From the IMG/VR virus record IMGVR_UViG_3300042484_001840, positions 81,043-145,042 of that record: 64,000 bases of DNA, one strand, 5' to 3'. Position numbers and translations under genes: made by a program. This document shows, one piece after another, positions 36,121 to 53,155 of the stretch. The notes beneath the pieces were generated by a model that worked only from the letters and a program-made list of their open reading frames with translations, did no database searches and was not told the DNA's origin. Numbering within the stretch: the stretch's first letter is position 1; every line of letters starts with the position of its first letter. This stretch comes from a virus.

Positions 36121-38049
36121 GTGGCTCACATTAGCGACCAATTTGTATCAAAGTACGCAGCACAGCAAGCACCTTGGGGATTCGGTGGACTTGGAGAAAT
36201 TGTTTATCTCCGAACCTACAGTCGTCGTATTGAAGAAATTGATCGTAATGAAATGTGGCATGAAACAATTCAGCGCGTCATCAATGGTGCCATTGAAATT
36301 GGAGTTCCATATACGCAAGAAGAAGCAGAAGTTTTATTTGACCACATGTTCAATCTTCGTTGCTCATTTTCTGGTCGCGCATTGTGGCAACTAGGAACGC
36401 CATTAGTCAAGCAATTCAACGCCGCTTCGCTTAACAATTGTTACTTTGTAAACATTGAATCTGTTAACGATTTTGAATTTCTTTTTGATCACTTGATGCT
36501 TGGCGGTGGAGTTGGTTTCTCTGTTGAACGAGCAAAAATTCACGAATTGCCAAAAGTTAAAAGCAATGTGAAGATTTCGCATGAGCGAACAAACGATGCC
36601 GACATCATTGTTCCAGACTCGCGTCAAGGATGGAGCAGACTTCTTCATTCCGTATTGAAGTCATACTTTGAAACAGGAAAATCTTTTACTTATTCAACAA
36701 TTCTTGTTCGTGAATTTGGCGCTCCACTAAAGAAGTTTGGTGGCACAGCATCAGGACCGGGCGCTCTTATTGATGGCGTTACCGACATCTGTAAGGTCAT
36801 GGAAAATCGCGCTGGCAAGAAGTTGCGTTCAGTTGATGTGTTGGATATTTGTAACATCATTGGTCGTATTGTTGTTTCAGGTTCATCGCGCCGTTCAGCG
36901 CAAATTGCAATCGGAGACCCCGACGATGTTTTGTTCCTTCGTGCAAAGAACTGGTCATCAGGAACTGTTCCAGCATGGCGAGCAAATAGCAACAACAGTA
37001 TTTATGCCGATGCGTGGGACGAAATTCTTCCCGAAGTATGGAAAGGCTATGACGGTTCTGGTGAGCCGTATGGTCTCGTAAATCGCAAGTTGGCTCGTAC
37101 CGTTGGTCGTTTGGGCGAGAAGCACGCAGACCCATCAATTGAGGGATACAACCCTTGTGCAGAAATCGCACTTGGCGATGGTGAGTCGTGCAACCTTGCA
37201 ACACTTTTCTTGCCCAATGTTGAATCACTTGAGCAGATGAAAGAAATCTCTCGCTTGCTTTACATGTGCCAAAAGCAAATTACTCGTCTTGAGTACCCAT
37301 ACGAAAAGACCAATAAGATTGTTGCAAAGAATGCTCGCCTAGGTCAGTCAATCACTGGAATTCTTCAGTGTGATGAAGAGCACCTTTCATGGTTGTCGCC
37401 AACATACGACTATCTGCGTTCAGTAGATAAAGAGTACTCAAAAGAGCACGGCTTCCCCGAGAGTATTCGCTTAACGACTGTTCAGCCATCAGGAACATTG
37501 GCACTCTTGCCTGGTAATACGCCTGGTATTCACCCCGCTTATGCCCGTTACTACATTCGCCGTGTTCGTTTCGGTGCATCAGATCCACTAGTTGATGCCT
37601 GTCGTCGCCGTGGATATGCCGTGAAGTGGGATGTCGGTCTTGATGGACGCGAAGACCACACTCGTTATGTGGTTGAGTTCCCAGCAGAGTCGCCAGAGAA
37701 CGCTGTCCTCGCTAAGGACATGACTGCCGTTGAGCAGTTGGAATGGGTAAAGAAGATGCAGACCGAATGGGCGGACAACGCCGTATCAGTAACGGTCTAT
37801 TACCGCAAGGAAGAACTTCCGTCCATTAAAGAATGGCTTGCATCTAACTACACGAATTCAGTGAAGTCAGTTTCATTCCTTCTCCACAGTGACCACAACT
37901 TCCCACTTCCCCCTTATGAGGAAATCACCAAGGATGTTTACGACAAGATGCTTTCAAAGGTTGATTATTCATTACCCTTGGTTTTGATCGCTTCGGGAAC
38001 CGAGTTGGACGATACTGACTGCGCTACTGGCGCTTGTCCAATCCGCTGA
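36121..38049 (+). CDS. nrdJ: class II (adenosylcobalamin-dependent) ribonucleoside-triphosphate reductase, 642 aa
   Basis: The start is GTG at 36121 after an A-rich stretch. The sequence has NNCYFVNIESVNDF and GGGVGFSVERAKIHEL, the finger-loop region NPCAEIALGDGESCNLATLF and QPSGTLALLPGNTPGIHPAY, and ends DDTDCATGACPIR, the C-terminal redox cysteines. This is the monomeric class II type. It reduces NTPs to dNTPs using coenzyme B12, which the host must supply. With ThyX it builds the dNTP pool for phage DNA. Confidence 0.9.
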   Translation: MAHISDQFVSKYAAQQAPWGFGGLGEIVYLRTYSRRIEEIDRNEMWHETIQRVINGAIEIGVPYTQEEAEVLFDHMFNLRCSFSGRALWQLGTPLVKQFNAASLNNCYFVNIESVNDFEFLFDHLMLGGGVGFSVERAKIHELPKVKSNVKISHERTNDADIIVPDSRQGWSRLLHSVLKSYFETGKSFTYSTILVREFGAPLKKFGGTASGPGALIDGVTDICKVMENRAGKKLRSVDVLDICNIIGRIVVSGSSRRSAQIAIGDPDDVLFLRAKNWSSGTVPAWRANSNNSIYADAWDEILPEVWKGYDGSGEPYGLVNRKLARTVGRLGEKHADPSIEGYNPCAEIALGDGESCNLATLFLPNVESLEQMKEISRLLYMCQKQITRLEYPYEKTNKIVAKNARLGQSITGILQCDEEHLSWLSPTYDYLRSVDKEYSKEHGFPESIRLTTVQPSGTLALLPGNTPGIHPAYARYYIRRVRFGASDPLVDACRRRGYAVKWDVGLDGREDHTRYVVEFPAESPENAVLAKDMTAVEQLEWVKKMQTEWADNAVSVTVYYRKEELPSIKEWLASNYTNSVKSVSFLLHSDHNFPLPPYEEITKDVYDKMLSKVDYSLPLVLIASGTELDDTDCATGACPIR

Positions 38050-39464: not shown

Positions 39465-40183
39465 ACATAACAGTTCACGATTCAACAATAGTTGCTGAAT
39501 GCGAGAATTCGGGGAGGTTCAATTCGGTTAGCCATACATATTTATTTGTTGGACCGAGGACTGTTGATGTTGCGGATGATATTAAAATAATTGTTTGTAA
39601 AGACATACAGCCAAACTATGAACACCTACCGCATTTTTATGATTTCACTGGATGGTTTGTCCTTGGAAAATACGAATTATTTTCAACAGACAACGCCATA
39701 TTTTTACAGTATGACCACCTCATTAACTCCGAAAACTTAGAGTCTCAGACTGAATCAGCATTGGCTGATAATCACATGATTGGGTATGCGCCAGCAGGAC
39801 CAGAGTTATGGACATTGCAATTGCCAAACTTCTACGAACGACAATTAGATGGCATTAGGGCGTGTGGCAACGACTGGGAAAAACTGCTGACTGAAGTTCC
39901 CTTTACAATTTGGCCAACGACTCAAGGTACGGCTTGGCGAACAAATGAATTTTGCCAGTTTATGAAGTGGTTTGAACCAGCCTTTGAATCCTTTAAAGAC
40001 CACACATTTGCTGGACATCTTGCTGAACGAATGATTCAGCCATTTTTGATGGCAAACGGCATGACTGCTGGTTATTTACCAGGCTTAATTTCTCATGAAT
40101 CACTTGACTGCCATGGAACTAAGGATTTAATTTTGGGGAATATTGATTCCTACAATAAAAAAACATCAACCTTCGGATTATAG
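39449..40183 (+). CDS. glycosyltransferase-like phage protein, 244 aa
   Basis: The start is TTG at 39449 after GAGGTCCTT. The protein has IFLQYDHLINSENLESQTES and NTLQ-type Trp-rich loops, then GTAWRTNEFCQFMKWFEPAF and FAGHLAERMIQPFLM. Acceptor or metal residues cannot be set without alignment. The overall make-up resembles the 38778 protein and enzymes that decorate surface glycans. It lies between two minus-strand genes of the same pathway and overlaps the start of one of them. Confidence 0.55.
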   Translation: MSIETYITVHDSTIVAECENSGRFNSVSHTYLFVGPRTVDVADDIKIIVCKDIQPNYEHLPHFYDFTGWFVLGKYELFSTDNAIFLQYDHLINSENLESQTESALADNHMIGYAPAGPELWTLQLPNFYERQLDGIRACGNDWEKLLTEVPFTIWPTTQGTAWRTNEFCQFMKWFEPAFESFKDHTFAGHLAERMIQPFLMANGMTAGYLPGLISHESLDCHGTKDLILGNIDSYNKKTSTFGL

Positions 40184-40789
40184 AATTTTTTTATTGACAT
40201 ACCAGTCTTCGTAGGGCTTCATGTAATACAGGGGATTCGTGTCAAGACATGGCGCATCTTCAACAACTCGCTCAAATCCATTATTTGACATAATTTGGAA
40301 TATTAAGTTTTTATTTACTGGACCATCCATGTATAGATTATGCTCAATTGTTGCTGAGTTAATTTGATATTTAGAAAAATCAAAAGACAGCAATACATCT
40401 GGTTCCATGCCCTCAATGTCCATTGACATGTAATCAATCTCATATGGGGCGTTTGCCAACTCAAGAATTGTCTCAAGTTTTGAACAAGGAACTAATGGGG
40501 CATTTTTATCTGATGTTGATGAAAATCCAGAAAAGTTTATTTCTCCTTCAAATGAAGCAGCGGCTACATTTAAATTTTTACAGTTAGGGCGATTAACAAT
40601 AAGCGACTGAAATACCTCTGGGCTTGCTTCAACGCATACCCCAGTCCATCCTTGTTCTTCCAATGCCCATGTATTGCTCGTATTGATGCCATCGTATGCG
40701 CCAATATCCACAAAAAATTTAGGAGATTGCTTGTACTGCATTATTTCTAAAACCCACTTATCCTGACCTGCTTGGGAATAGAAGTTCAT
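40178..40789 (-). CDS. FkbM-family methyltransferase, 203 aa
   Basis: ATG at 40789 overlaps the previous stop (ATGA). The FkbM pattern is clear: FYSQAGQDKWVLEIM, FFVDIGAYDGINTSNT, then GWTGVCVEASPEVFQSL and YMSMDIEGMEPDVLLSF. The enzymes move a methyl group from S-adenosylmethionine to sugars or polyketides. It probably O-methylates a glycan, with the coupled glycosyltransferase and C-methyltransferase. Confidence 0.9.
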   Translation of the reverse strand: MNFYSQAGQDKWVLEIMQYKQSPKFFVDIGAYDGINTSNTWALEEQGWTGVCVEASPEVFQSLIVNRPNCKNLNVAAASFEGEINFSGFSSTSDKNAPLVPCSKLETILELANAPYEIDYMSMDIEGMEPDVLLSFDFSKYQINSATIEHNLYMDGPVNKNLIFQIMSNNGFERVVEDAPCLDTNPLYYMKPYEDWYVNKKIL

Positions 40790-41736
40790 AAAATCTCCTT
40801 AATCATTTTTTCAATATCATTAATAAATAAGTTTGCATATTTATTCTTCAAGTCAATAGCATTATTGCTAAATGTATCGTAACTATTAACAATATCTGCA
40901 AAGTTTACATTTGGATATCTTGGGACACTTTCATCAATGTGCCTAAAAAGTGCACAGTCGCTCAATAACATTGGTTTTCCAGATGCAATCAAATAGTCAG
41001 CAGAAGAAGATATCCCAGCATTGCTTGGTGGGAGTTCATAAAATAGTGCATTGATATCATTTGAGGCAAGCATTTCAACAATTTCTTCTTCACTTACATA
41101 ATCACTAGTGTGGTTAAAGCGAATATTGGGTTTTGTAATTTCCCTAAGGATTGATTGAATAATCTCATCTGTATAATCCCCAGTAAAAGTACCAACTGTC
41201 ATGTGTAGGTTAAAAACGGCATTATCAAAATGTTTGTTTATTTCTCGCATAATGATATGAAAATTCTTATGGGGTAAACCAAAGCCAAAACTGCCTATTC
41301 GTATTTCGCCATCACTTAGTTGGGTGTCTACGCTTTTACCCGCGTGAATTGTTCTACCAACTGGGAATATACGATTATCCGATGTTTTTAGTGTTGGATC
41401 ATTGCATATCATGTAGTCAAACAAGCCAGAATAACCATTCATTATTGCGGTGATGCTTGTTGGATCAAATAGGTGCTGTACTACGACTCTCTTGGCGGGG
41501 AAACCAGATATTGAGTCTTTTGATACCCATGGCATAACAAGTTGCATATAATTAAAGAAAACAATAGACGGCTGATGTATTGCGTAGATAGAGGCGTACT
41601 CGTCTGCTGAATTACACTCAGCGTAAACAGCATCCAAGAGTGAACTCTTCGCTAACTGATTAAACTGCCGTTTTCCAAAGTCATAAACACCACAGCGAGA
41701 ACCGAGACCGTGGTTTATATAAAGGACTTTTATCAT
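40786..41736 (-). CDS. glycosyltransferase (GT-B fold), 316 aa
   Basis: ATG at 41736 overlaps the previous stop. The N-terminus reads VLYINHGLGSRCGVYDFGK, typical of GT4 enzymes. The C-terminal donor-side region includes ALFYELPPSNAGISSSADYL and ASGKPMLLSDCALFRH. It is expected to add a sugar from a nucleotide donor to a growing glycan. Middle gene of the three-gene methyltransferase/glycosyltransferase set. Confidence 0.8.
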   Translation of the reverse strand: MIKVLYINHGLGSRCGVYDFGKRQFNQLAKSSLLDAVYAECNSADEYASIYAIHQPSIVFFNYMQLVMPWVSKDSISGFPAKRVVVQHLFDPTSITAIMNGYSGLFDYMICNDPTLKTSDNRIFPVGRTIHAGKSVDTQLSDGEIRIGSFGFGLPHKNFHIIMREINKHFDNAVFNLHMTVGTFTGDYTDEIIQSILREITKPNIRFNHTSDYVSEEEIVEMLASNDINALFYELPPSNAGISSSADYLIASGKPMLLSDCALFRHIDESVPRYPNVNFADIVNSYDTFSNNAIDLKNKYANLFINDIEKMIKEIL

Positions 41737-42941
41737 GAACCAACTATATCAAACACTGGACAAGGGAAAACAAACTTTCCGCCACCATCAAGGTATGACT
41801 TTTCGCGGGTAATGAATTCAGCGCGGAAGTGCCAAGGGAGTACAAGGAGATAGTCTGGTTTTGCTTCTCGCATTTCATCTTCTGATTTGATCGGGATATT
41901 TGTGCCGATAGTGCGGAGACCAAACTTATACGGAGAGCGTTCTGCAATTGCGTCTACCATTGTTTCGTCAATGCCAAAGTATTGCAACAATGTATTGCCC
42001 TTAGTTGAGGCACCGTAACCCCAAACAGTCTTACCTTCTTCTTTTGCCTTCTTAAGAAAAGCCAAAGTTTGCGCTTTAAGGTTTTCAATCTTTACAAAGA
42101 AATCATTCCATACTTCTGGAGTATTAACTTTTGTTTCGCGCTCATGAGCAAGAATAGAATCAACTCTAAATTTACATACATCACGATGAGGCTGTGTGCC
42201 AAATTTTGTCTTATCAGCAACATCTTTCATCGCGTAAATTCGGAAACTTCCGCCGTTTACATCATTGAGTTGACAGTCCATAATTTTAAAACCGCATGAT
42301 TCAAATAGTGTTTTGATTGATTCAAGGCTGTAATAATAAACATGTTCGTGGCAAATATTATCAAATGCGACTTGAGCCAACATTAATGGCGTATAACTCA
42401 TCTGAAGAATAAAAATTCCATCATCGTCCAAGACTGAATATGCATCATTCAAGAATGGACGCGGATTGTCTAAATCATAGAACATAGCAATACATGTAAT
42501 AATGTCCGCTTTTGGAGCATTTGAAGGGTATGACTTGGCAGAAAAATAATCACGGATAACTACATCGCCGTGCTTTTTTGCTTCTTCCGTAAAAGACTCA
42601 TCAGCAGGGTCAATGCCGATTTTGTAGATATTCTGTGGGATTTTTTCAAGAAGTGTTCCGTCATTACAGGCAATATCAAGCCATGTTGAAATATTCTTTT
42701 GCCCCTTAACTTGAAGTGCAGAAGCAACAATTCCAGCAAGTTCATCTTTCATAGTTTGGTTAGTGCCAGACCGATACCAATAACGACCATACATAAATGA
42801 AGGATCAGCAGTTTGCTTAAGGCGGGCACAGTTGAGTTCTGAGTCCCACTCCAACTGAAGATCAACTGGCTCGCATCGCGGTTCTTCACCATTGGCAAGA
42901 AAGTCAGACAGAAATAGATTTCCAAGATTGAACAAATCCAC
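41733..42941 (-). CDS. sugar C-methyltransferase (Methyltransf_13/14 type), 402 aa
   Basis: The likely start is GTG at 42941 after TTGGAGTTTATT; TTG at 42959 is an alternative. The N-terminal part resembles the Methyltransf_13 module with NGEEPRCEPVDL but keeps few of its cysteines. The S-adenosylmethionine site follows (WLDIACNDGTLLEKI), then CHEHVYYYSLES and the C-terminal Methyltransf_14 module (KTVWGYGASTKGNTLLQYFG). This family C-methylates dTDP- or GDP-deoxysugars. It probably makes a branched sugar for the phage glycan. Confidence 0.8.
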   Translation of the reverse strand: MDLFNLGNLFLSDFLANGEEPRCEPVDLQLEWDSELNCARLKQTADPSFMYGRYWYRSGTNQTMKDELAGIVASALQVKGQKNISTWLDIACNDGTLLEKIPQNIYKIGIDPADESFTEEAKKHGDVVIRDYFSAKSYPSNAPKADIITCIAMFYDLDNPRPFLNDAYSVLDDDGIFILQMSYTPLMLAQVAFDNICHEHVYYYSLESIKTLFESCGFKIMDCQLNDVNGGSFRIYAMKDVADKTKFGTQPHRDVCKFRVDSILAHERETKVNTPEVWNDFFVKIENLKAQTLAFLKKAKEEGKTVWGYGASTKGNTLLQYFGIDETMVDAIAERSPYKFGLRTIGTNIPIKSEDEMREAKPDYLLVLPWHFRAEFITREKSYLDGGGKFVFPCPVFDIVGS

Positions 42942-43012
42942 AATAAACTCCAAAGTCAAAACATTGTTTATTTTTGTTTATTATAGATCAATATTTTTTT
43001 ACAAGGTATAAG

Positions 43013-43798
43013 TCAATTTATTGTCTTTAATTCTTTGAACCTAGCCGTCATATCATCGCGATATAAATTTGCAATATCAGCAACTAATGTTTGAATTTGT
43101 TCGTTGCGTACTCGTTGTGCAGTAGATGGTCCAATATGTTGTTTATATAATAACTTACCAATATGAAACATCTTAGTTATAAGAAAAGTTCTAACAATTA
43201 ATTCATAGTCATCAGCAACAGGATATTTGGGATCGTGACCATTTAGTGCTCTATAAACATCAGCGCGCCAAGCACGAACATGATTAGGTGCAGAAACGAT
43301 ATGACGGATAGTTGCATCATTAATTTCAGGTGCGCTCATTACACTCACACCATACTCCTCGGACCAATACTCTGAACCAAAACCAAAAGCCCAACCCATA
43401 GGGTAAACGCCTGATTGACCGTTTGGTAACAGTTCACACCAGTCCGAGTAAACAAATCCAACTTCGGGGTCTTGAAAGGCGTTATGGATTTCCTGCAAAC
43501 AGTCAGGGGTTAACTCATCATCGTGGTCTAACTCAACAAGAATGTCGCCCTCAGCAACCATAAAGCCTTGACGCTTTAGACGACCAATGTTGCCTGAGTG
43601 AACATGTGAACGATGCATGGAAATCTTGTAGCGTTCATCAGAACAGAATCCGTATAGTTGACTCCAAGTTTCAGTATTAGTAGAGTCATCCCAAATAACC
43701 CATTCCCAGTCTGTGAAAGTTTGTGCTTTTAGCGATGCCCAAGTGCGAGCAAGAATGTCTGGGTCTGTGTTATAGGTTGGCGTAATAACTGAGATCAT
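43013..43798 (-). CDS. family 2 glycosyltransferase (GT-A), 261 aa
   Basis: ATG at 43798. The N-terminus MISVITPTYNTDPDILARTW and the metal motif ELDHDDELTPDCLQE mark a GT2 enzyme. A later ADDYELIVR fits the acceptor region. It transfers a sugar from a nucleotide donor. It lies upstream of the methyltransferase set and completes the glycan locus (38.8-43.8 kb). Confidence 0.9.
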   Translation of the reverse strand: MISVITPTYNTDPDILARTWASLKAQTFTDWEWVIWDDSTNTETWSQLYGFCSDERYKISMHRSHVHSGNIGRLKRQGFMVAEGDILVELDHDDELTPDCLQEIHNAFQDPEVGFVYSDWCELLPNGQSGVYPMGWAFGFGSEYWSEEYGVSVMSAPEINDATIRHIVSAPNHVRAWRADVYRALNGHDPKYPVADDYELIVRTFLITKMFHIGKLLYKQHIGPSTAQRVRNEQIQTLVADIANLYRDDMTARFKELKTIN

Positions 43799-46016: not shown

Positions 46017-46246
46017 TCTGACGAGCCTAGAAGTTCAGAAAATGATAGGAGACTAGTTAAATCAAAAACTGCTTGAGATACTTCCTCGGGGGGTAGTGAA
46101 TAATGAAGGCGACCTCTAACTTCAAGGTAATTCTCATTAGTAACGACCTGAGGCTCCATGCCCGCACGAATGGTGAGTTTATGTGATTCTTTTGTGCAGT
46201 AATCTCTCAAAACTTGATGCAGTTCTTTATGCGTTACTTCAGTCAT
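46013..46246 (-). CDS. hypothetical phage protein, 77 aa
   Basis: The start is ATG at 46246 after TGGAAGGAAAAGCAA; it overlaps the oxygenase stop by 8 bp. Product: HKELHQVLRDYCTKESHKLT, then GRLHYSLPPEEVSQAVFDLT. Alpha/beta; no family recognised. Confidence 0.65.
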   Translation of the reverse strand: MTEVTHKELHQVLRDYCTKESHKLTIRAGMEPQVVTNENYLEVRGRLHYSLPPEEVSQAVFDLTSLLSFSELLGSSE

Positions 46247-46979
46247 TTGCTTTTCCTTCCAATACTGTCTCTGGCGGGGGAGGGCATGTGCATGGGGCGT
46301 TTGGGGGAATGCATCTAATGAAAGATGAAACAATCCACTTATCTGAAGAAAGTGGCATCAAGCCTTCATGAGGGTGAGTCCAATATGAAGGGAATAGTGC
46401 AACTCGCCCAGCAACAGCATCTACCGTTGTTTGGTGGAATGGGAAATTCGTCCCCCCACCTTCGCTTACGGTGTTGAGATAAAGAATCAGACCCAAAGTC
46501 CTCGTCTCAGAACCACCGAGCCAAGGCGCTCCATCAATATGCTCATTATAGAAACCGCTATTTTGTTTATATTTCTGAACTTGATAACCAGTATCTGAAA
46601 CCATGCAATAATCAAAACTATCAGCATGGCGCAATGTTGGAAAAGTTTCTTTATATAAATTAACTACTTTCCATATTTGTTCAAAAATTCTTTTGTCAAA
46701 TTCTAATTCTTTTTCTGAAGGAGAATTCGCTTCAACATTTAAGTTCCAGTCAGTAGAAACTTTTACGCGGAAATCCGTACCACCCATAGTTCTACCAATT
46801 TTGGAATAATGCGAATTTTCTTCACAGTGTTTAATTAAATTTGTACAAAAACCTTCGTCAAATACGCCATCAACATAAGCAATGGCAGATTGCCTTCCAA
46901 CTGGAAAGGTGAGAGGTGAGTTAAAGAACTTTTCTGCGCTTCCAGCAAAGTTAATCACTTCCTGAATATTGTCAGTCAT
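46239..46979 (-). CDS. 2-oxoglutarate/Fe(II)-dependent oxygenase (P4H-like), 246 aa
   Basis: The start is ATG at 46979, overlapping the previous stop by 8 bp. The double-stranded beta-helix has the iron triad: YNEHIDG (HxD), then SYWTHPHEG (His), with a later basic residue (SSDKWIV) for 2-oxoglutarate. The family hydroxylates proteins or small molecules. It sits in a block with a halogenase and a methyltransferase-like gene in the tail-fibre operon, so it may modify a virion or host-surface part. Confidence 0.85.
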   Translation of the reverse strand: MTDNIQEVINFAGSAEKFFNSPLTFPVGRQSAIAYVDGVFDEGFCTNLIKHCEENSHYSKIGRTMGGTDFRVKVSTDWNLNVEANSPSEKELEFDKRIFEQIWKVVNLYKETFPTLRHADSFDYCMVSDTGYQVQKYKQNSGFYNEHIDGAPWLGGSETRTLGLILYLNTVSEGGGTNFPFHQTTVDAVAGRVALFPSYWTHPHEGLMPLSSDKWIVSSFIRCIPPNAPCTCPPPPETVLEGKAND

Positions 46980-47730
46980 CGGAGTTTTTTCTATTTTTGC
47001 GATAACGCTGTCCAACGGAACCATCTAATGAAATGGTTGGTCCATCCGACATTCCGCGGGCGTAAACATATTTGTAGTTTTCCTCGTCAGCAAATTTAAT
47101 TTCTTGAATATCACCAGAGCGTTTGAAAGGAATGACATGAGCAAGAGGTGTTCCGTAGCGAATAACAAAAGGCTCATCACCCTTTAAGTTCAAAACAACA
47201 TTCATGTGGTGGTAATAATCCGTATGAACAATCGCTGGGACTACATCGTAATTATTGTTTGGTTCGTAGGGAATCCCACTAATAATTGATGACCAACCCT
47301 TGGCGGTAATGAATGAATAAGGATTCACCAATTTTGGATACGGTGACTCTTCCTGCTTCCTATTACGAGTCATTGGACATTCGCCAGTTGTTGACATTGG
47401 GAATGGTTGACTTTCAAAAGGGACTAAAGAAAAAGGCATTTGCCCAATCTCTACTTCCCAACCACCAAGGTCAGGTCGTGGGTTGAAGGAAAAGTCTGAC
47501 CACGCAGGGATAATATATCCAAGATTTAAATAGTCTTGAACCCCAGCGCACTTGCGAATTCCATCTTTTGGAGAAATCTTGAACCATGTAGGTAGCGTTT
47601 TGGCGCTAGTGGCATATGGCTTTGCGTCCTCAAGCAGACGATTATCCATTGGGATAATTAGAGTCTGTCCTTCTTTTACGCTTTTGCGCATAGATGAATA
47701 AACATTTCGTGGCTTAGTTGTAAATTTCAT
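46972..47730 (-). CDS. conserved phage protein next to the halogenase, DUF6065-like, 252 aa
   Basis: ATG at 47730 overlaps the halogenase gene end by 17 bp. The sequence has TLPTWFKISPKDGIRKCAGV, then NLGYIIPAWSDFSF and ISGIPYEPNNNYDVVPAIVH. It resembles a family (DUF6065-like, from memory) that accompanies oxygenase and halogenase genes in aquatic phages. The several Trp/His/Asp residues may form a cupin-like site. Function unknown. Confidence 0.6.
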   Translation of the reverse strand: MKFTTKPRNVYSSMRKSVKEGQTLIIPMDNRLLEDAKPYATSAKTLPTWFKISPKDGIRKCAGVQDYLNLGYIIPAWSDFSFNPRPDLGGWEVEIGQMPFSLVPFESQPFPMSTTGECPMTRNRKQEESPYPKLVNPYSFITAKGWSSIISGIPYEPNNNYDVVPAIVHTDYYHHMNVVLNLKGDEPFVIRYGTPLAHVIPFKRSGDIQEIKFADEENYKYVYARGMSDGPTISLDGSVGQRYRKNRKNSDD

Positions 47731-49189
47731 TGAGTGCCTCCGCGTGGTCTACTAGTTCTTCTGTGAGTCTAGTATTTCTTACATTAGAAATTTCTTTAAG
47801 CGCCGAGTCAATTTTGTCAAAGTTCTGCATCATTCTACCAATAGGCTCGGTACTAATAACATTTTGTCCTTGTGCAACATGAAGTAAATGCGCTATTTGG
47901 AACATTTCACCGTGATTATTTGATATATGGTCACGAGGTAGTGTCGTTTCTTGCCATAAATCTAAAAGTTCTTGAAGTGAGTCGTTGACTGGCATTTCTG
48001 CTGTGGCGCGCCAGAATTCTGTATCTCGCCTGTCTGACATATAGTGAAGCCTAATCATAATAAGGATGTTGTCCATCATTATATTGAAATTCTTGTTTAC
48101 TGTTTTTTGGGATGCCCAATGACCATGTTTATATGAACCTAAAAATGGCATTATTTGGTCCATCTGTTGAATTGTTGAGCCGATTGATGTTGCTTCCAGT
48201 GGTTCAACAAATGAACTTGCCAGACCGACCGTAAGGCAGTTCTTGACCCATGGTGTTTTAAGATGACCAGGGTCAAACTTGAATGTTCGTGCAGGACTAA
48301 TATTTATCCCTAATGTTTCCGAGGCTTCTTTGATGGCATCTTCTTCGCTAAGGAAGGCGGATGAATACACATAGCCATTTCCCCGTCGTTCCTGTGTAGG
48401 AATTTCCCACATCCAGCCTGACGAAAGTGCACGCGCCCGTGTGTATGCTCTAATTTTGCCATTTTCATCTTTTTCTGTTGGAAAAGCAAAAGCAGAATCT
48501 GCTAACAAATACTTACTAAATGATTCCCATTCCGTATTCCCTAATGCTTTGCTGAGAATTCTTTGAAATCCAGTAGCATCTATCCAAAAATTAGCAATTA
48601 CTTTTTTCCCTGACTTTAGGTCAACTGATTCAATATGACCCTGTTCGGGGTTTAGGTTTACTTTTTCAATAAAACCCTCAATGAAACCAATATGCCTGCG
48701 ACCAGCAACATTTCTGAAATACTCGTTTAATTTAAATGTATCAAAGTGATATTGGTTAGTTGCATTATGCATATGCTTTTTACTAATTTTATCTGTAAAT
48801 AAACCAACACTTCCAGTATTATTTGTTAACAATTTACCGTCAGCAATAAGTTTGCTATACACGGCATAAAGTCTCCACATAAAAATTTCTTCATCACCAG
48901 AAACGCTATGAATATAATCAGGGAATACCGTTGACCAATTCTCAAACCTGATTCCGTATTTGTGAGTTGCTTTTGTTTCTGCCATCATCTCAAGAAGCGG
49001 AATATCACATCGGCTCATCATTGTTCGCCAATGCTCAGTACTGCCTTCTCCAACGCCTACAATGCCCACTTCGCTTGAGGAAATAATAGTTATTTTTGCT
49101 TGCGGGAAAGCAGAGCGCAACATTATTGAAGATATTAGACCTGCTGTACCAGAACCACAAATACCAAATGACAAAGGTGTTTCATTCAT
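47714..49189 (-). CDS. flavin-dependent halogenase (tryptophan-halogenase family), 491 aa
   Basis: ATG at 49189. FAD site GICGSGTAGLISSIML at the N-terminus; VGVGEGST at 45-51; Lys77 in ETKATHKYGIRFENW aligns with the catalytic Lys79 of PrnA; DATGFQR at 204-210; the GWMWEIP motif (258-264) that separates halogenases from monooxygenases; and VGLASSFVEPLEATSI near 321-336. The enzyme should make hypohalous acid from FADH2, oxygen and halide and halogenate an aromatic or other electron-rich group. A viral halogenase from a cyanophage is known. The substrate here is unknown. Confidence 0.9.
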   Translation of the reverse strand: MNETPLSFGICGSGTAGLISSIMLRSAFPQAKITIISSSEVGIVGVGEGSTEHWRTMMSRCDIPLLEMMAETKATHKYGIRFENWSTVFPDYIHSVSGDEEIFMWRLYAVYSKLIADGKLLTNNTGSVGLFTDKISKKHMHNATNQYHFDTFKLNEYFRNVAGRRHIGFIEGFIEKVNLNPEQGHIESVDLKSGKKVIANFWIDATGFQRILSKALGNTEWESFSKYLLADSAFAFPTEKDENGKIRAYTRARALSSGWMWEIPTQERRGNGYVYSSAFLSEEDAIKEASETLGINISPARTFKFDPGHLKTPWVKNCLTVGLASSFVEPLEATSIGSTIQQMDQIMPFLGSYKHGHWASQKTVNKNFNIMMDNILIMIRLHYMSDRRDTEFWRATAEMPVNDSLQELLDLWQETTLPRDHISNNHGEMFQIAHLLHVAQGQNVISTEPIGRMMQNFDKIDSALKEISNVRNTRLTEELVDHAEALNEIYN

Positions 49190-49203
49190 AACTAGATACT
49201 ACA

Positions 49204-49908
49204 TCAATCAACCTTACGGACGCAAAGGGTGTAGGAAATATATCCTTGCATGTGCATTATGTCAAATTTTTGTGTGTCTTTTAATCTTGCGTGCACTTGA
49301 TGAGCAAAACCTGTTTCACCAGACTCTTGGTAAAGTTCACCACCATTTGAAGAGTTTGACACTATGAGTAATCCACCAGGCTTGATGGCATTGACTACGG
49401 CATCAAAAATATCATTGTCAGCAAAGTAATTAACTACAACTTGAGCAAAATCAATTTGAGGCATGGAAGTTTTTATAGTTTCCCAAGGCAGTGTTGTCAC
49501 ATTATTGATGGATGTCGTATCCATCGCTTCATTGAGCAAGAACAAAGAACTGTGGTTTGCTGTATAAACTGTTTCTAGAACATCGGATGCCAATAATAAT
49601 TCCGTTGCTGAACCAATAACTAATCCTGTTGAGGCTTTTATTGCTGTAGCAAAGAACTTTGGGAAGTGACTAATAGACCAAAGCATAGGAGCAAGAATCT
49701 CACCGTTGGGTGCCCCAGTTACTCCGAAGTAGTGGAACTCCGTTGATTTTGATGCCAAGTCAACACTGCCACCACCACTTGTTTTGACATTTTCATAAAT
49801 AAGTTTACAAAAATTAATATAATCATCAATTGATGTTAATTTACTATTTTGTGATGATGATAAAGCAAAAAATGTCTCTTCGCCCATTTTGATAAATTGG
49901 CTAGGCAT
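49204..49908 (-). CDS. methyltransferase-like protein, 234 aa
   Basis: ATG at 49908. The central part has the Rossmann-type segment GLVIGSATELLLASDVLETV, then QIDFAQVVVNYFADNDIFDA and the motif IKPGGLLIVSNSS. These fit a class I S-adenosylmethionine methyltransferase, although the first glycine motif is loose. It is one gene away from the halogenase and may act on the same molecule. Confidence 0.6.
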   Translation of the reverse strand: MPSQFIKMGEETFFALSSSQNSKLTSIDDYINFCKLIYENVKTSGGGSVDLASKSTEFHYFGVTGAPNGEILAPMLWSISHFPKFFATAIKASTGLVIGSATELLLASDVLETVYTANHSSLFLLNEAMDTTSINNVTTLPWETIKTSMPQIDFAQVVVNYFADNDIFDAVVNAIKPGGLLIVSNSSNGGELYQESGETGFAHQVHARLKDTQKFDIMHMQGYISYTLCVRKVD

Positions 49909-49909
49909 A

Positions 49910-50134
49910 TCAGAAGGTCTCTTCTTTAGTTACTACAGAAAAAAACAAAATACTTCTCAATTCATTTAACACTTTGATGTTGTCTCCGCCAGATAAAGAA
50001 ATTACAAGTGCTTGCCTAATCATTTCATAGTTTGATTCGTCTACAAAACATGGTTCAATACCTATCAAAGAACAAATATAAAAAGACCTCTCAGCAAGGT
50101 AACTATAATGGTCATTTTTATCGTAATTAATCAT
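49910..50134 (-). CDS. small phage protein, 74 aa
   Basis: The start is ATG at 50134, overlapping the previous stop by 8 bp; ATG at 50146 is an alternative. The product is helical (YSYLAERSFYICSLIGIEPC, then NYEMIRQALVISLSGGDNIK) with two cysteines. No family is recognised. It belongs to the tail-region operon and precedes the methyltransferase-like gene. Confidence 0.55.
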   Translation of the reverse strand: MINYDKNDHYSYLAERSFYICSLIGIEPCFVDESNYEMIRQALVISLSGGDNIKVLNELRSILFFSVVTKEETF

Positions 50135-50306
50135 TAGTGGAGCCATCTATAAAAAAAGGGGTATCCAATAAGGGGCACCCGGTATTCGTTGTTTCTTGGT
50201 TAATCATCCAATTTTGCAAATGAAGACCTTCTTCAATCGGAATACAATACTTATCTTTTAACTTTTGTTTTTCTATCCGTTGAATAAGTTCTTCTGGTGT
50301 TGCCAT
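50127..50306 (-). CDS. small phage protein, 59 aa
   Basis: ATG at 50306, three bases after the stop of the upstream gene. The product (MATPEELIQRIEKQKLKDKY start) has a helical first half, then IEEGLHLQNWMINQ and a GCPLLDTPFFIDG end. It is just under the usual length cutoff, but its place and overlaps support it. Function unknown. Confidence 0.55.
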   Translation of the reverse strand: MATPEELIQRIEKQKLKDKYCIPIEEGLHLQNWMINQETTNTGCPLLDTPFFIDGSTND

Positions 50307-50309
50307 GAG

Positions 50310-50552
50310 TTAAACCCCAAGGGCAACCAATTTTGTTGCAATAATTTTCAAACCGTCACAAACTTGCTCAACGCGATAAACATCACCATCAAAGGCGTAA
50401 TTTTCCATCGCTACTTCGTCTTCAATATCAAATAACGAAGGGTCAATTGCATGACGAAGCAGGATGCTCGTCAATTCTGTTGAGAGTTGTATGCGCGCTT
50501 GTTCAAGAAGGTTAACTTTTGTAGAAAGTGGCATATCATCAAAAAAAGACAT
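50310..50552 (-). CDS. small helical phage protein, 80 aa
   Basis: ATG at 50552 follows TAGGAGAAATA. The product is helical and acidic (STKVNLLEQARIQLSTELTS, then MENYAFDGDVYRVEQVCDGL). It may be a chaperone or linker for the fibre encoded before it, judged only by position. Confidence 0.65.
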   Translation of the reverse strand: MSFFDDMPLSTKVNLLEQARIQLSTELTSILLRHAIDPSLFDIEDEVAMENYAFDGDVYRVEQVCDGLKIIATKLVALGV

Positions 50553-50573: not shown

Positions 50574-52436
50574 TTATTTATTGAGTATAACATAGACATT
50601 TCCAGCACCACCAGTTCCAGTGCCACCAGTTCCTGCGCCAACAGAGGTGGTAATTTGAGAAAGTGTGGATGTTGATGGTGTAATGAATATTTTACCACCA
50701 GCGGGACCAGTATCTCCAATAGCGTATGTCGCCGTACTTGAAAAGGAACGCACGGGACGCACATAGTACGCGGTGGACTTGGCAAAGTCAAAAGTAAGGC
50801 TGCCGTCAAAATTCCAAAACGCCGCTTGGCTGGCGGAAAGTTCAGAAGAACTCCAATAGGGGCCAGACGAAAAACTTGTGTTTAAAGCAACTCTGTTGAT
50901 ATGCATCTGTTCTAGTTCATTATAGGACGGCAAAAACCAGTCCGATTGTCCGCCAGAAACTAATTCGCTACAATAAACAGCAGCCGATGATGATGCCAGA
51001 TTTCCTGACTGGGCAACAATATCTGCGGTGTTCTGTTCGCCTGTACCAATTGCTGTACCGTCAGCGCCACTAACTGACGCAATCTGGTTGCCTCCAGTAG
51101 CCCAAGTTCTACCAACTTGAACGCTAACAGGGGCAACCTCAAAATATTTAAATGGCTCTGTGACGACAATAATGGCACCGCCACCGCCATTATATCCAGC
51201 CTGACCAGTGCCCCCAGTTACCGCTGGGGCAGCCGCTCCACCCGCTCCGCCTGCTCCGCCTGCATATGAGGAATTTGTGTTGCAGATATGATTGGCGTGA
51301 GTGCTGTTGTGGGCGTTGCAGACACTATGGTGGGCATGATTTTGTTGGTGGAAGTGATGGTTGCTTTGTTGGTGGAAGTGATGGTTGCTTCGTTGGTGGA
51401 AGTGATGGTTGCTTTGTTGGTGAGCATGATTGACGCAGTGACTAGCATGTCCATGCTGGGTACAGTAAGAGTGATGGTGCCCGTCTCTTACATTCTCGTG
51501 GGCGTTGGTCCGAACCTCCTCGTGGGCGTTGGTCCGAACATTCTCGTGGGAGTTGGTCCGAACATGACCGTGAGTAACGCAGTTGGCAGTATTGGCAGGG
51601 GATGTGTGGTTATTGCACCCAGCAATAGTGCTAGTGCTGTTTGTTCCAGCATTGACAGTTAGGGTTGGGGCTGTTGCTCCCGTATTTCCAGCAGTACCAG
51701 GACTTCCCGTACTTCCCGCACTTCCAGAAGAGCCACTAAATCCAACTGCCGAAATCGTTCCAGTACCTGTGATGGTTTTAGCAATAATAACCGCTAATGC
51801 GCCACCATTACCACCTGTTCCGCCAGCCCCTCCAACTCCTGCTGTTGCGCCCGTTGCCGTACCAGAGTTGCCTGTATAGCCTTTTCCACCAGAAGCGCCC
51901 TCGGTATTGGCGTTGGGTGAGTATGCGCCTGCGCTTCCTGCTGTGCCTGCCTTGCCAGACCAAGTGTCAGCGTTGGTTAATGCCGCTGTTGTATTTCCAG
52001 TGCTTCCTGCTATACCAGCAGAGCCTCCACGAACCGACGCTAGTCCACCCACCTGAACAGGAGACGAATCTAAAACCAATCCATAGATATTTTCTGTGAC
52101 CCACGATGGGGCGGAGTTTGCTGATGACCCCGCGCCAATGCCACCTAAAACATTAGAAACATTTGACGATGTTGTTACCGCAAATATTGTTCCCGTGGTC
52201 GTCCCCGTATTTACGGAAATAGTCCCATTTAGGGTGAGGGTATTTTTGACAAATATTTTATATCCACTACAAGTTAATGTTACCCCGACATTAACTGTCA
52301 GGTTATTGTAATACTTATCCGATGTCAGGGTTGTATTTCCAGTAATAGTTACATCACCATCAGTGCCCTGACCATAAATAGCGTCATTGCCTGTTCGTTG
52401 AGTTGTTGATGAGCCGTAACTAAATAATCCACTCAT
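50574..52436 (-). CDS. His-rich, Gly-rich tail fibre with DUF1566-like tip, 620 aa
   Basis: ATG at 52436. The N-terminal module (YGQGTDGDVTITGNTTLTSD, then NLTVNVGVTLTCSGYKIFVK) is shared with the next gene. A Gly/Ala/Thr-rich shaft follows. About 100 residues (roughly 287-390) are His-rich: three VRTN[SA]HE[NE] repeats and four SNHHFHQ repeats. The HxH motifs resemble the iron-binding needle of T4 gp37. A DUF1566/lectin-like domain comes next (GGQSDWFLPSYNELEQM, then YWSSSE), then a Gly-rich end. It is a likely receptor-binding fibre. Confidence 0.85.
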   Translation of the reverse strand: MSGLFSYGSSTTQRTGNDAIYGQGTDGDVTITGNTTLTSDKYYNNLTVNVGVTLTCSGYKIFVKNTLTLNGTISVNTGTTTGTIFAVTTSSNVSNVLGGIGAGSSANSAPSWVTENIYGLVLDSSPVQVGGLASVRGGSAGIAGSTGNTTAALTNADTWSGKAGTAGSAGAYSPNANTEGASGGKGYTGNSGTATGATAGVGGAGGTGGNGGALAVIIAKTITGTGTISAVGFSGSSGSAGSTGSPGTAGNTGATAPTLTVNAGTNSTSTIAGCNNHTSPANTANCVTHGHVRTNSHENVRTNAHEEVRTNAHENVRDGHHHSYCTQHGHASHCVNHAHQQSNHHFHQRSNHHFHQQSNHHFHQQNHAHHSVCNAHNSTHANHICNTNSSYAGGAGGAGGAAAPAVTGGTGQAGYNGGGGAIIVVTEPFKYFEVAPVSVQVGRTWATGGNQIASVSGADGTAIGTGEQNTADIVAQSGNLASSSAAVYCSELVSGGQSDWFLPSYNELEQMHINRVALNTSFSSGPYWSSSELSASQAAFWNFDGSLTFDFAKSTAYYVRPVRSFSSTATYAIGDTGPAGGKIFITPSTSTLSQITTSVGAGTGGTGTGGAGNVYVILNK

Positions 52437-52438
52437 GG

Positions 52439-53155
52439 TTATACCAACTGAATATAGTTATATGTGCCAGGGTAAGCGCCATTAACGGAAGTGTAGACAT
52501 TTGCTGGCAAGGATGCTCCAGAGGAAATGACGATAATAACGCCTCCGCCACCCCCCCCTCCGCCTTCCGCAATAAAATTTGCTTTAGTTAAAGTATCAGC
52601 AGTACAGGCAATGTAACGAGCAGCACAAATAATCACTCCACCACCAAGTCCACCAGTTCCTCCAGCGCCACCTCGTAAATATGTGGGTCCACCACTGGCA
52701 GTTATTGAAAAACCACGAACAGCCTGATGAGGTTGTTTATAGTAATTAGCGCCACCTAGAGCACTTGTTGGTGCGGTTGCTGTTGCCGTGGAGCCGTTTC
52801 CACCAAGACTATGCGTAACAGAAACTGTCGCCGTGCCACCCTGTTGGATTGTTCCTGCCGTAGACCACCCCGTGCCATCAGCCCATCCAATACGCGATGC
52901 ATTACCAAGGGTTAATAGGTTTTGAACAAATATACGATAACCGTTAGGTTGGATTCTTACACTGTCACTAACAGACATGTTGTAACAATAAATGTCTCTA
53001 GTCAATGAGTACACACTAGAAGAAGGTGCCATACTTAAAATCGTCGTAGTGCCGTCAAAAACAACAGAACCATCGTCGCCAGTTCCATAAACAACATCTG
53101 GCGCGTCAAGGAATTGCGCCAATCCGTTTGAACCATATTTGACTACAGCAGGCAT
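52439..53155 (-). CDS. tail fibre protein, 238 aa
   Basis: ATG at 53155 overlaps the previous stop (TGATG). The N-terminal module (VVYGTGDDGSVVFDGTTTIL, then YNMSVSDSVRIQPNGYRIFV) matches that of the 50574 protein. The C-terminal part is Gly-rich (GGAGGTGGLGGGVI, then EGGGGGGGGVIIVIS). The two are probably duplicated fibre proteins that diverged at the tip. Confidence 0.75.
   Translation of the reverse strand: MPAVVKYGSNGLAQFLDAPDVVYGTGDDGSVVFDGTTTILSMAPSSSVYSLTRDIYCYNMSVSDSVRIQPNGYRIFVQNLLTLGNASRIGWADGTGWSTAGTIQQGGTATVSVTHSLGGNGSTATATAPTSALGGANYYKQPHQAVRGFSITASGGPTYLRGGAGGTGGLGGGVIICAARYIACTADTLTKANFIAEGGGGGGGGVIIVISSGASLPANVYTSVNGAYPGTYNYIQLV

Follow-up and report, generated by a model that had tools for sequence, protein, structure and literature searches.

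Linked phage genes for a halogenase, a prolyl-4-hydroxylase-type oxygenase and a dUTPase-fold protein behind a histidine-rich fibre tip suggest chemical tailoring of the attachment tip

Among the flavin-dependent halogenases (FDHs) described so far, BrvH and Xcc4156 (PDB 6frl and 6y1w) share their catalytic motifs with the phage enzyme considered here (HAL, P0001), but they are host-encoded and have no known natural substrate. The active site of BrvH is open to solvent, from which larger substrates have been suggested, and the enzyme has been likened to the peptide-acting MibH (PMC5945002). MibH and SrpI are FDHs that act on ribosomal peptides, and SrpI was reported to brominate a peptide, but their targets are Trp residues in small peptides from bacterial clusters (PMC5945002, PMC10858898). 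In phages, VirX1 and other cyanophage halogenases (Syn10, P-SSM2, and S-H38; PHROG 2928) belong to the Pfam family of P0001 and are ~23-40% identical to it. Some of their genes adjoin 2OG/PhyH oxygenase genes, and in HTVC008M the halogenase and 2OG/PhyH genes overlap. A cyanophage cluster comprising a halogenase, 2OGFeDO, and methylase was also reported, and was read as a system for secondary metabolites or capsule decoration (Iyer et al. 2021, PMC7824862). This cluster resembles the present cassette in its phage-linked halogenase, several 2OG oxygenases, and methyltransferases, but it contains carbamoyltransferases, cupins, and HAD phosphatases, and no tie to a fibre was described; of the window's cassette genes that could be assigned to families, none was a carbamoyltransferase or a gene for sugar or amino-acid synthesis. 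Searching P-SSM2, HTVC008M, and two SAG viruses turned up neither the dUTPase-fold partner, nor the pair of glycine-rich fibre genes (FIB1 and FIB2), nor a protein strongly enriched in His, and the halogenases of the cultured phages P-SSM2 and AG-345 (38% identical) stand without the fibre context. A sequence-only reading of the same DNA had held that one cyanophage halogenase is known, which is not supported, given homologues in 82 phage records of INPHARED, and that a linked modifying set is not, which was too strong in view of HTVC008M and the Iyer cluster.

With regard to virion proteins, the glycosylation of mycobacteriophages is an example of actinophages modifying their own (Freeman et al. 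2023, cited in PMC12619734); there the marks are sugars on capsid and tail tube, whereas halogens on an adhesin are proposed here. The polyglycine-sandwich adhesin S16 gp38 (PMC6851490) is similar to FIB2 in having a receptor-binding tip, Gly-rich blocks, and hypervariable segments, but these segments are short and no modifying enzymes have been described for it; no sequence match between the two proteins was found.

The window (the whole stretch of 64,000 nucleotides that was analysed) is part of a 145-kb uncultured-phage record, whose three WhiB genes indicate that the source is probably an actinophage. The four genes noticed in the sequence-only reading are present where it placed them, all on the minus strand in the tail operon, and form a compact unit downstream of a glycine-rich fibre gene (Table 1). 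The methyltransferase-like gene and HAL are separated by a 14-nt gap, whereas the HAL and dUTPase-fold ORFs overlap by 17 nt and the dUTPase-fold and 2OG oxygenase ORFs by 53 nt. Of the small proteins nearby, that of cluster c16 mostly co-occurs with the methyltransferase-like gene, that of cluster c1 is present in 55/70 HAL loci, and the holin-like protein, for which no Pfam or PHROG match was found, is a frequent end of the cassette (38/70). Scans for promoters and terminators yielded chance-level hits only, no flavin reductase was found in the phage record, and no nucleotide-level relative was found among cultured phages.

Table 1. Coordinates of the cassette and its neighbours in the window
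Feature	Position	Strand	Evidence
Holin-like small membrane protein, 99 aa	45717..46016	-	label from look only
P0002, 2OG/Fe(II) oxygenase, prolyl-4-hydroxylase type, 261 aa	46239..47024	-	PF13640, PHROG 61
P0003, dUTPase-fold (DUF6065/PHROG 7084 relative), 252 aa	46972..47730	-	profile and structure matches
P0001, flavin-dependent halogenase (HAL), 491 aa	47714..49189	-	PF04820, conserved catalytic residues
P0004, methyltransferase-fold, optional, 234 aa	49204..49908	-	AF2 model and Foldseek
Small protein, 78 aa, cluster c16	49910..50146	-	ORF and cluster analysis
Small helical-looking protein, 80 aa, cluster c1	50310..50552	-	cluster analysis
FIB2, glycine-rich fibre/adhesin, 620 aa, probable substrate	50574..52436	-	homologous head and Gly-rich blocks
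FIB2 His-rich tip insert, residues 259-392	51261..51662	-	composition, in-frame repeats
FIB1, companion glycine-rich fibre, 238 aa, His-poor	52439..53155	-	conserved partner gene
Collagen-like fibre, 1,205 aa	53514-57131		Pfam Collagen PF01391, 6.8e-58

The claim of a full halogenase with intact motifs is borne out. P0001 matches Trp_halogenase (PF04820) over its full length (4e-99; 332.9 bits against a cut-off of 21) and contains GxGxxG (G12, G14, and G17), K77, GWMWEIP (258-264), and E332. In 80 non-redundant relatives, G12, G14, G17, K77, W259, E262, P264, and E332 are conserved at 98% or more, position 261 is occupied by W in 74 enzymes and by F in the other 6, and GxGxxG is kept, so that the loss of FAD binding envisaged earlier is not seen. 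Judged by these residues, P0001 is an intact FDH with predicted halogenating activity. Its closest solved relatives are Xcc4156 and BrvH (E ~1e-54). The lid-loop residues that bind the amino and carboxyl groups of Trp have been described (PMC5945002); the phmmer alignment of P0001 with RebH stops at residue 458, short of the lid residues E461/F465, while that with Xcc4156 runs to residue 468, through the RebH lid region, with a 4-residue insertion in P0001. P0001 may still be a free-tryptophan halogenase of the PrnA/RebH type, although this role is not favoured.

The assignment of P0002 as a 2OG/Fe(II) oxygenase also stands (PF13640, 1.3e-9; PHROG 61, 6e-31). Prolyl 4-hydroxylases (P4Hs) have a Lys 10 residues past the distal His, and the cassette oxygenases show the same P4H-like arrangement of iron triad and Lys at H+10; in P0002 these are H162/D164/H219 and K229, kept in at least 147/162 relatives. 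Its best PDB matches are P4Hs, although weak (E 7e-4). P0002 is thus of the P4H type as far as its residues tell, and hydroxylation of peptidyl proline is predicted. P0004, for which no Pfam or PHROG match and no sequence family was found, was only partly well named: its AF2 model (pLDDT 82) matches O-methyltransferases in Foldseek (E 5e-8), which points to a Rossmann methyltransferase fold, but the gene is not part of the core (21/70 loci), and G190 and Y193 are the only invariant residues among 14 diverse family members.

The label "DUF6065-like" for P0003 holds only in part. P0003 itself has no significant match to DUF6065 (PF19541), while 9/40 family members match it weakly and a relative from a locus without halogenase (L190:14155-14970) exceeds the cut-off (27.2 vs 26.6 bits). 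The family adopts a dUTPase fold both by profile, PF00692 being matched by 18/40 members (best 1.1e-6), and by AlphaFold2 and Foldseek, in which the best 50 matches of the P0003 model are all dUTPases (best E 2.7e-5); DUF6065 was therefore rejected as a sufficient label. An active dUTPase was rejected as well, because the catalytic Asp of motif III is lost: P0003 reads IVHTDYYH, with His in its place. The position is His or Asn in 72/73 scored members from halogenase-bearing (HAL+) loci and Glu in 33/34 scored members from halogenase-free (HAL-) loci.

The linkage was surveyed in a non-redundant set of 70 loci from uncultured phages, each with sufficient flanking sequence. HAL lies adjacent to or near the dUTPase-fold gene on one strand in 70/70 loci and the 2OG oxygenase gene in 68/70; the linked set thus survives the survey, and its recurrence rejects a chance neighbourhood. 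In nearly all loci the cassette is directly downstream of the FIB1-FIB2 pair, and it still adjoins the pair in lineages whose FIB1 proteins share ~40% identity. When the His-poor FIB1 rather than HAL served as the search seed, every recovered locus on a sufficiently long contig was HAL+, and a dUTPase-fold profile search of genome contigs found three contigs, one from an Actinomycetota MAG and two from marine MAGs, each carrying the cassette. However, HAL is not always tied to His-rich fibres, an idea rejected by the cultured phages and by one HAL clade (L064, L329, and L330), which carries HAL and a 2OG gene and in whose contigs no dUTPase-fold gene or His-rich ORF was found.

FIB2, the fibre directly upstream of the cassette, has a head and Gly-rich blocks with homologues in nearly all HAL loci, an Lcl_C domain (PF07603, residues 476-562), and a hypervariable, sharply bounded, His-rich insert. 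This tip contains 29 of the protein's 30 His, 2 Tyr, and no Trp; it was missed in the sequence-only reading and is the most informative feature. A reading-frame artefact is unlikely, as the insert is flanked in frame by conserved Gly-rich blocks and contains repeats with an in-frame 24-nt period. In HAL+ fibres, tip His has a median of 19.6% (5.7-35.7) against 0.6% in the rest of the fibre, five fibres that could not be divided into tip and rest being omitted, and the fibres of L163, L172, and L207 have 8-11 His only. In related HAL- fibres the tips are Tyr-rich (12.6%) and His-poor (median 4.7%, 0-6.2), so that a His-rich tip is not a feature of the whole fibre family; the FIB1 tree shows a single change in HAL presence, and the link between HAL and tip His, however many fibres it spans, therefore counts as one evolutionary contrast.

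HAL- cassettes retain the dUTPase-fold and 2OG genes in 26/26 cases and carry a PF11397-type GlcNAc-transferase in 13/26 (match confirmed at 1.9e-26), and no HAL was found elsewhere in 20 records of such phages, which may be fragments, while positive controls were detected. The PF11397 family acts on hydroxyproline that a P4H has formed in Skp1. The Skp1 pathway of P4H and GlcNAc-transferase (PMC3515798) is thus similar to the sister cassettes L187 and L203, which combine a P4H-type oxygenase with a PF11397-type GlcNAc-transferase, but it is eukaryotic with a regulatory target, and the window cassette has no recognised PF11397 gene.

On balance, though narrowly, the cassette probably serves to tailor the adhesin FIB2 of the same phage post-translationally, its enzymes being made together with the tail proteins. 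Of the three substrates named earlier (a fibre residue, a host glycan, or an antibiotic-like molecule), a fibre residue is now the best supported, because the cassette tracks an extreme aromatic fibre tip whose composition changes without HAL. Briefly, HAL would use host FADH2, O2, and halide to halogenate His, Tyr, and Trp side chains of the exposed tip, nearly all of them His in the source phage; hydroxylation of FIB2 at prolines or nearby residues would fall to the P4H-type oxygenase; the dUTPase-fold protein may serve as a partner, probably trimeric and without hydrolytic activity, in binding or presenting the fibre; and the optional methyltransferase could contribute one more mark. Such modification might alter how the tip binds receptors or metals, or how well it resists wear. 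We know of no FDH that acts on free His. A halogenated His/Gly-rich protein was reported from the jaws of Nereis (PMC13120676), and 5-bromohistidine exists (PMC8659048).

It is unlikely that the product of the cassette is instead a halogenated small molecule or a decorated host capsule or glycan (as antibiotic, toxin, or superinfection barrier), its adjacency to the fibre reflecting a habit of insertion before the lysis gene. A similar cyanophage gene mix was read in this way (PMC7824862), glycosyltransferase, C-methyltransferase, and FkbM genes lie just downstream in the window, and L329 and L330 carry, besides HAL, an Asp/Asn hydroxylase and a weak match to sulfotransferases; on the other hand, no NRPS, PKS, or RiPP scaffold genes were recognised among recurrent neighbours, the enzyme content shifts together with fibre tip composition, and the cassette keeps its place beside the divergent fibre pairs. 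Modification of another virion protein, either FIB1 or the collagen-like fibre, with the tip serving as an unmodified metal-binding receptor domain, is rather improbable: a P4H-type enzyme near a collagen-repeat fibre and five CxxH motifs in the tip (1.3 expected, p 0.003), typical of metal binding, would fit it, but collagen-like fibres accompany only 47/80 cassettes (tblastn 1e-5; some contigs are short), whereas FIB2 is nearly always the adjoining fibre and its tip changes when HAL is absent. That the enzyme is a flavin monooxygenase or a source of HOX (oxidizing or cross-linking His/Tyr, for example) that forms no stable carbon-halogen bond is very improbable, since, although fresh water has little bromide and modest chloride and HOX might escape from an open site such as that of BrvH, 80 enzymes share a conserved K77, E332, and WxWxIP region, as expected if halogenation is under selection.

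The set of HAL, P4H-type oxygenase, and dUTPase-fold protein behind a His-rich tip, carried by many uncultured aquatic phages, suggests that these phages chemically tailor their own attachment tip, for which there is no earlier description. A fuller picture is tentative and somewhat doubtful: widespread phages would edit their tip with halogenated imidazoles on a ~20%-His adhesin and hydroxyprolines, giving a hardened or metal-tuned surface with altered recognition, sister lineages would use a Tyr-rich tip with hydroxylation and GlcNAc, and this would be the first viral protein halogenation. Halogenases from phages have long lacked a known natural substrate; the present loci encode a candidate close beside the enzyme, and its composition is not the same in relatives with and without the halogenase. 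In addition, a dUTPase-fold family without the catalytic Asp has been recruited to fibre genes. If the tailoring reading is true, the cassette would provide a matched enzyme/substrate pair for protein halogenation, and the tailoring of adhesins by tailed phages would matter, in both marine and freshwater settings, to adsorption and host range as well as to metal chemistry and evasion.

The stretch between the baseplate-like and holin-like genes of the window is, to judge by its PHROG tail-fibre, collagen-like and baseplate matches, a tail operon, and the genes of the cassette are listed in its reading order in the table below. The clustering of halogenase, 2OG oxygenase, DUF-like and methyltransferase-like genes proposed in the sequence-only reading was confirmed as a four-gene core (P0004-P0001-P0003-P0002) with spacings of -53 to +14 nt. 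P0001 belongs to the flavin-dependent halogenases and is intact, its key residues being conserved over 80 non-redundant relatives. P0002 retains the iron triad and the Lys of the prolyl-4-hydroxylase (P4H) type, P0003 has a dUTPase fold whose catalytic Asp is replaced by His or Asn in loci with the halogenase (HAL+) and by Glu in loci lacking it (HAL-less), and P0004 has a methyltransferase fold with putative activity.

Cassette and neighbouring genes of the window in minus-strand reading order
Feature	Coordinates	Strand	Position in order
Collagen-like fibre, 1,205 aa		-	first
119-aa protein		-	between collagen-like fibre and FIB1
FIB1, Gly-rich fibre, 238 aa		-	after 119-aa protein
FIB2, Gly-rich fibre, 620 aa	50574-52436	-	after FIB1
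c1, small protein, 80 aa		-	after FIB2
c16, small protein, 78 aa		-	after c1
P0004, methyltransferase-like		-	after c16
P0001, halogenase	47714-49189	-	after P0004
P0003, dUTPase-fold		-	after P0001
P0002, 2OG oxygenase		-	after P0003
Small ORF, then small membrane protein		-	after P0002

P0002 matches PHROG 274 and 2297, both named DNA endonuclease (compare L160:4383-7916), and genes named DNA endonuclease V lie near the halogenase of S-H38; because of this, the name may be a misannotation that has spread among 2OG oxygenases. Genes for a glycosyltransferase 2 (GT2), a C-methyltransferase (PF08484) and an FkbM methyltransferase are grouped downstream of the cassette (40178-43798, minus strand) and could possibly form a glycan arm of the same tailoring; a GT2 homologue also follows the holin-like gene in several halogenase loci. 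The Lcl_C domain (PF07603) occurs in two window tail proteins (59789-62596 and 50574-52436, both minus strand), the former of which also has seven DUF5122 beta-propeller stretches.

An IMG/VR scan seeded with the halogenase yielded 118 relatives, and the loci of 80 were compared by gene clustering and HMM annotation. They share a single stereotyped order: FIB1, FIB2, c1, c5, 2OG oxygenase, (c16, methyltransferase), halogenase, dUTPase-fold gene, (c1, c6 or second 2OG oxygenase), holin-like gene. Counts were made on 70 HAL+ loci, kept after 90% redundancy removal and with at least 3 kb on each side of the halogenase, for partners at most 5 kb from it on the same strand. All 70 carry the dUTPase-fold gene (directly adjacent in 67), whereas the 2OG gene occurs in 68, c5 in 58, c1 in 55 and the methyltransferase in 21. 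Variants include inversion onto the other strand (L060-L063), a halogenase upstream of the fibres (L194, L197, L236) and two tandem cassettes (L356, L358).

FIB2 comprises a conserved head and Gly-rich blocks, between which lies a hypervariable insert, the tip. In the window, the insert (residues 259-392) holds 29 of the protein's 30 His, two Tyr, zero Trp and five CxxH motifs, where shuffled sequences would give 1.3 (p 0.003). Over the HAL+ set its median length is 191 aa, with 19.6% His (range 5.7-35.7) vs 0.6% in the remaining FIB2, and 8.6 vs 3.8% Pro. Of the 4,392 other ORFs that are 120 aa or longer, 99% contain at most 11 His in any 120-residue stretch. The most extreme fibres seen have 108 (L331, 6.1-8.2 kb) and 100 His (L333, 6.3-8.2 kb); three HAL+ fibres have just 8-11.

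Fibre relatives without the halogenase were sought by scans seeded with FIB1 instead. The first returned solely HAL+ loci and contigs ending too early; deeper scans recovered a HAL-less clade with intact surroundings, and a search of 20 HAL-less records for a halogenase at any other position came back negative with working positive controls. As read from sequence, the enzyme set and tip chemistry change together, because this clade has an altered cassette and Tyr-rich, His-poor tips (12.6% Tyr and 4.7% His; HAL+, 3.9% and 19.6%). The dUTPase-fold and 2OG genes are retained in 26/26 HAL-less loci, with an FkbM methyltransferase in 18 and a PF11397-like glycosyltransferase in 13. Since the halogenase state changes exactly once on the FIB1 tree (support 100/99), the row statistics, comparing 80 HAL+ with 26 HAL-less non-redundant loci, describe one evolutionary contrast.

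The glycosyltransferase of L187 was confirmed as PF11397 (1.9e-26), which we take to be the family of the Skp1 hydroxyproline GlcNAc-transferase. For Skp1, a pathway of P4H action followed by GlcNAc addition has been described (PMC3515798). It is resembled by the HAL-less cassettes in which a PF11397 GlcNAc-transferase lies beside 2OG oxygenases and a Tyr/Pro-rich adhesin (L187:10715-11941, L203:10646-11860, L285-L291). A second HAL-less architecture (L190:9977-17018, relatives L241-L277) has a pullulanase-associated-domain-like protein, two to three 2OG oxygenases, an FkbM methyltransferase, two dUTPase-fold genes and an unmatched 274-aa protein, then a ferredoxin-like gene.

By gene context, a halogenase and 2OG oxygenase beside a Gly-rich tail protein are more general than a halogenase with a His-rich tip, because of the His-poor HAL+ fibres and of one small halogenase clade (L064, L329, L330). 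There, the halogenase directly follows a 2OG gene and a Gly-rich tail protein, and the dUTPase-fold gene and His-rich ORF are both absent. The 2OG oxygenase differs and the tail protein is of the Gly_rich_2 type in L329:6434-9927 and L330:9369-12583; L329 also encodes an Asp/Asn beta-hydroxylase (8e-16) and a protein that weakly matches sulfotransferases.

With regard to known systems, the claim that no linked phage set was known is too strong, because a cyanophage cluster of halogenase, 2OGFeDO and methylase has been described and attributed to metabolite or capsule chemistry (PMC7824862). Neither the fibre nor the dUTPase-fold context occurs in cultured phages whose halogenases are at most 38% identical (P-SSM2, HTVC008M and two SAG viruses). 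Among the open-licence PMC papers searched, none was found to describe a cassette that is linked to fibre genes and includes a dUTPase-fold partner and a His-rich adhesin, its occurrence across uncultured phages from fresh and marine waters, or the sister system in which Tyr-rich tips go with a hydroxylase and a GlcNAc-transferase. S16 gp38, with a Gly-rich tip and hypervariable segments, is a structural analogue of FIB2 (PMC6851490); a sequence link between them was looked for and none was found.

The window covers bases 81,043-145,042 of the 145,042-base virus record. The host is likely actinobacterial, because the whole record has three WhiB genes over the cut-off (Corynebacterium alone was positive among 14 control genomes) and, in a contig assigned to an Actinomycetota MAG, the same cassette surrounds a relative that is 91% identical to another member of the dUTPase-fold family. 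The window also encodes a B12-dependent-type ribonucleotide reductase (RNR_Alpha, RNR-II insertion domain; 36121-38049, plus strand).

The sequence-only reading had offered a fibre residue, a host glycan or an antibiotic-like molecule as substrate; this reading is now partly supported, and sharpened towards the first of these. The sequence itself shows that the halogenase is intact, that the oxygenase is of P4H type, that the dUTPase fold has lost its catalytic Asp and that the set keeps its position after the adhesin gene. Small-molecule or host-glycan chemistry and modification of another virion protein are the main rivals, and tailoring of the phage's own adhesin, which we judge about evenly balanced between right and wrong, is the best-supported reading. 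Several precedents support it: the active site of BrvH, a close relative of P0001, is open to solvent, and this enzyme, which does not act on Trp, has been likened to the peptide-acting MibH (PMC5945002), and SrpI brominates Trp of a ribosomal peptide (PMC10858898). It was also reported that a Nereis jaw protein rich in His and Gly is probably halogenated (PMC13120676) and that 5-bromohistidine is natural (PMC8659048). In tailoring the adhesin, the cassette enzymes would act on FIB2 inside the infected cell, before assembly, and the halogenase would draw on host FADH2; no flavin reductase was found in the whole virus record. The modification may affect binding to the receptor, affinity for metals, hardness or evasion. 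The targets would be aromatic residues of the FIB2 tip and, given its scarce Tyr and missing Trp in the window phage, mostly His.
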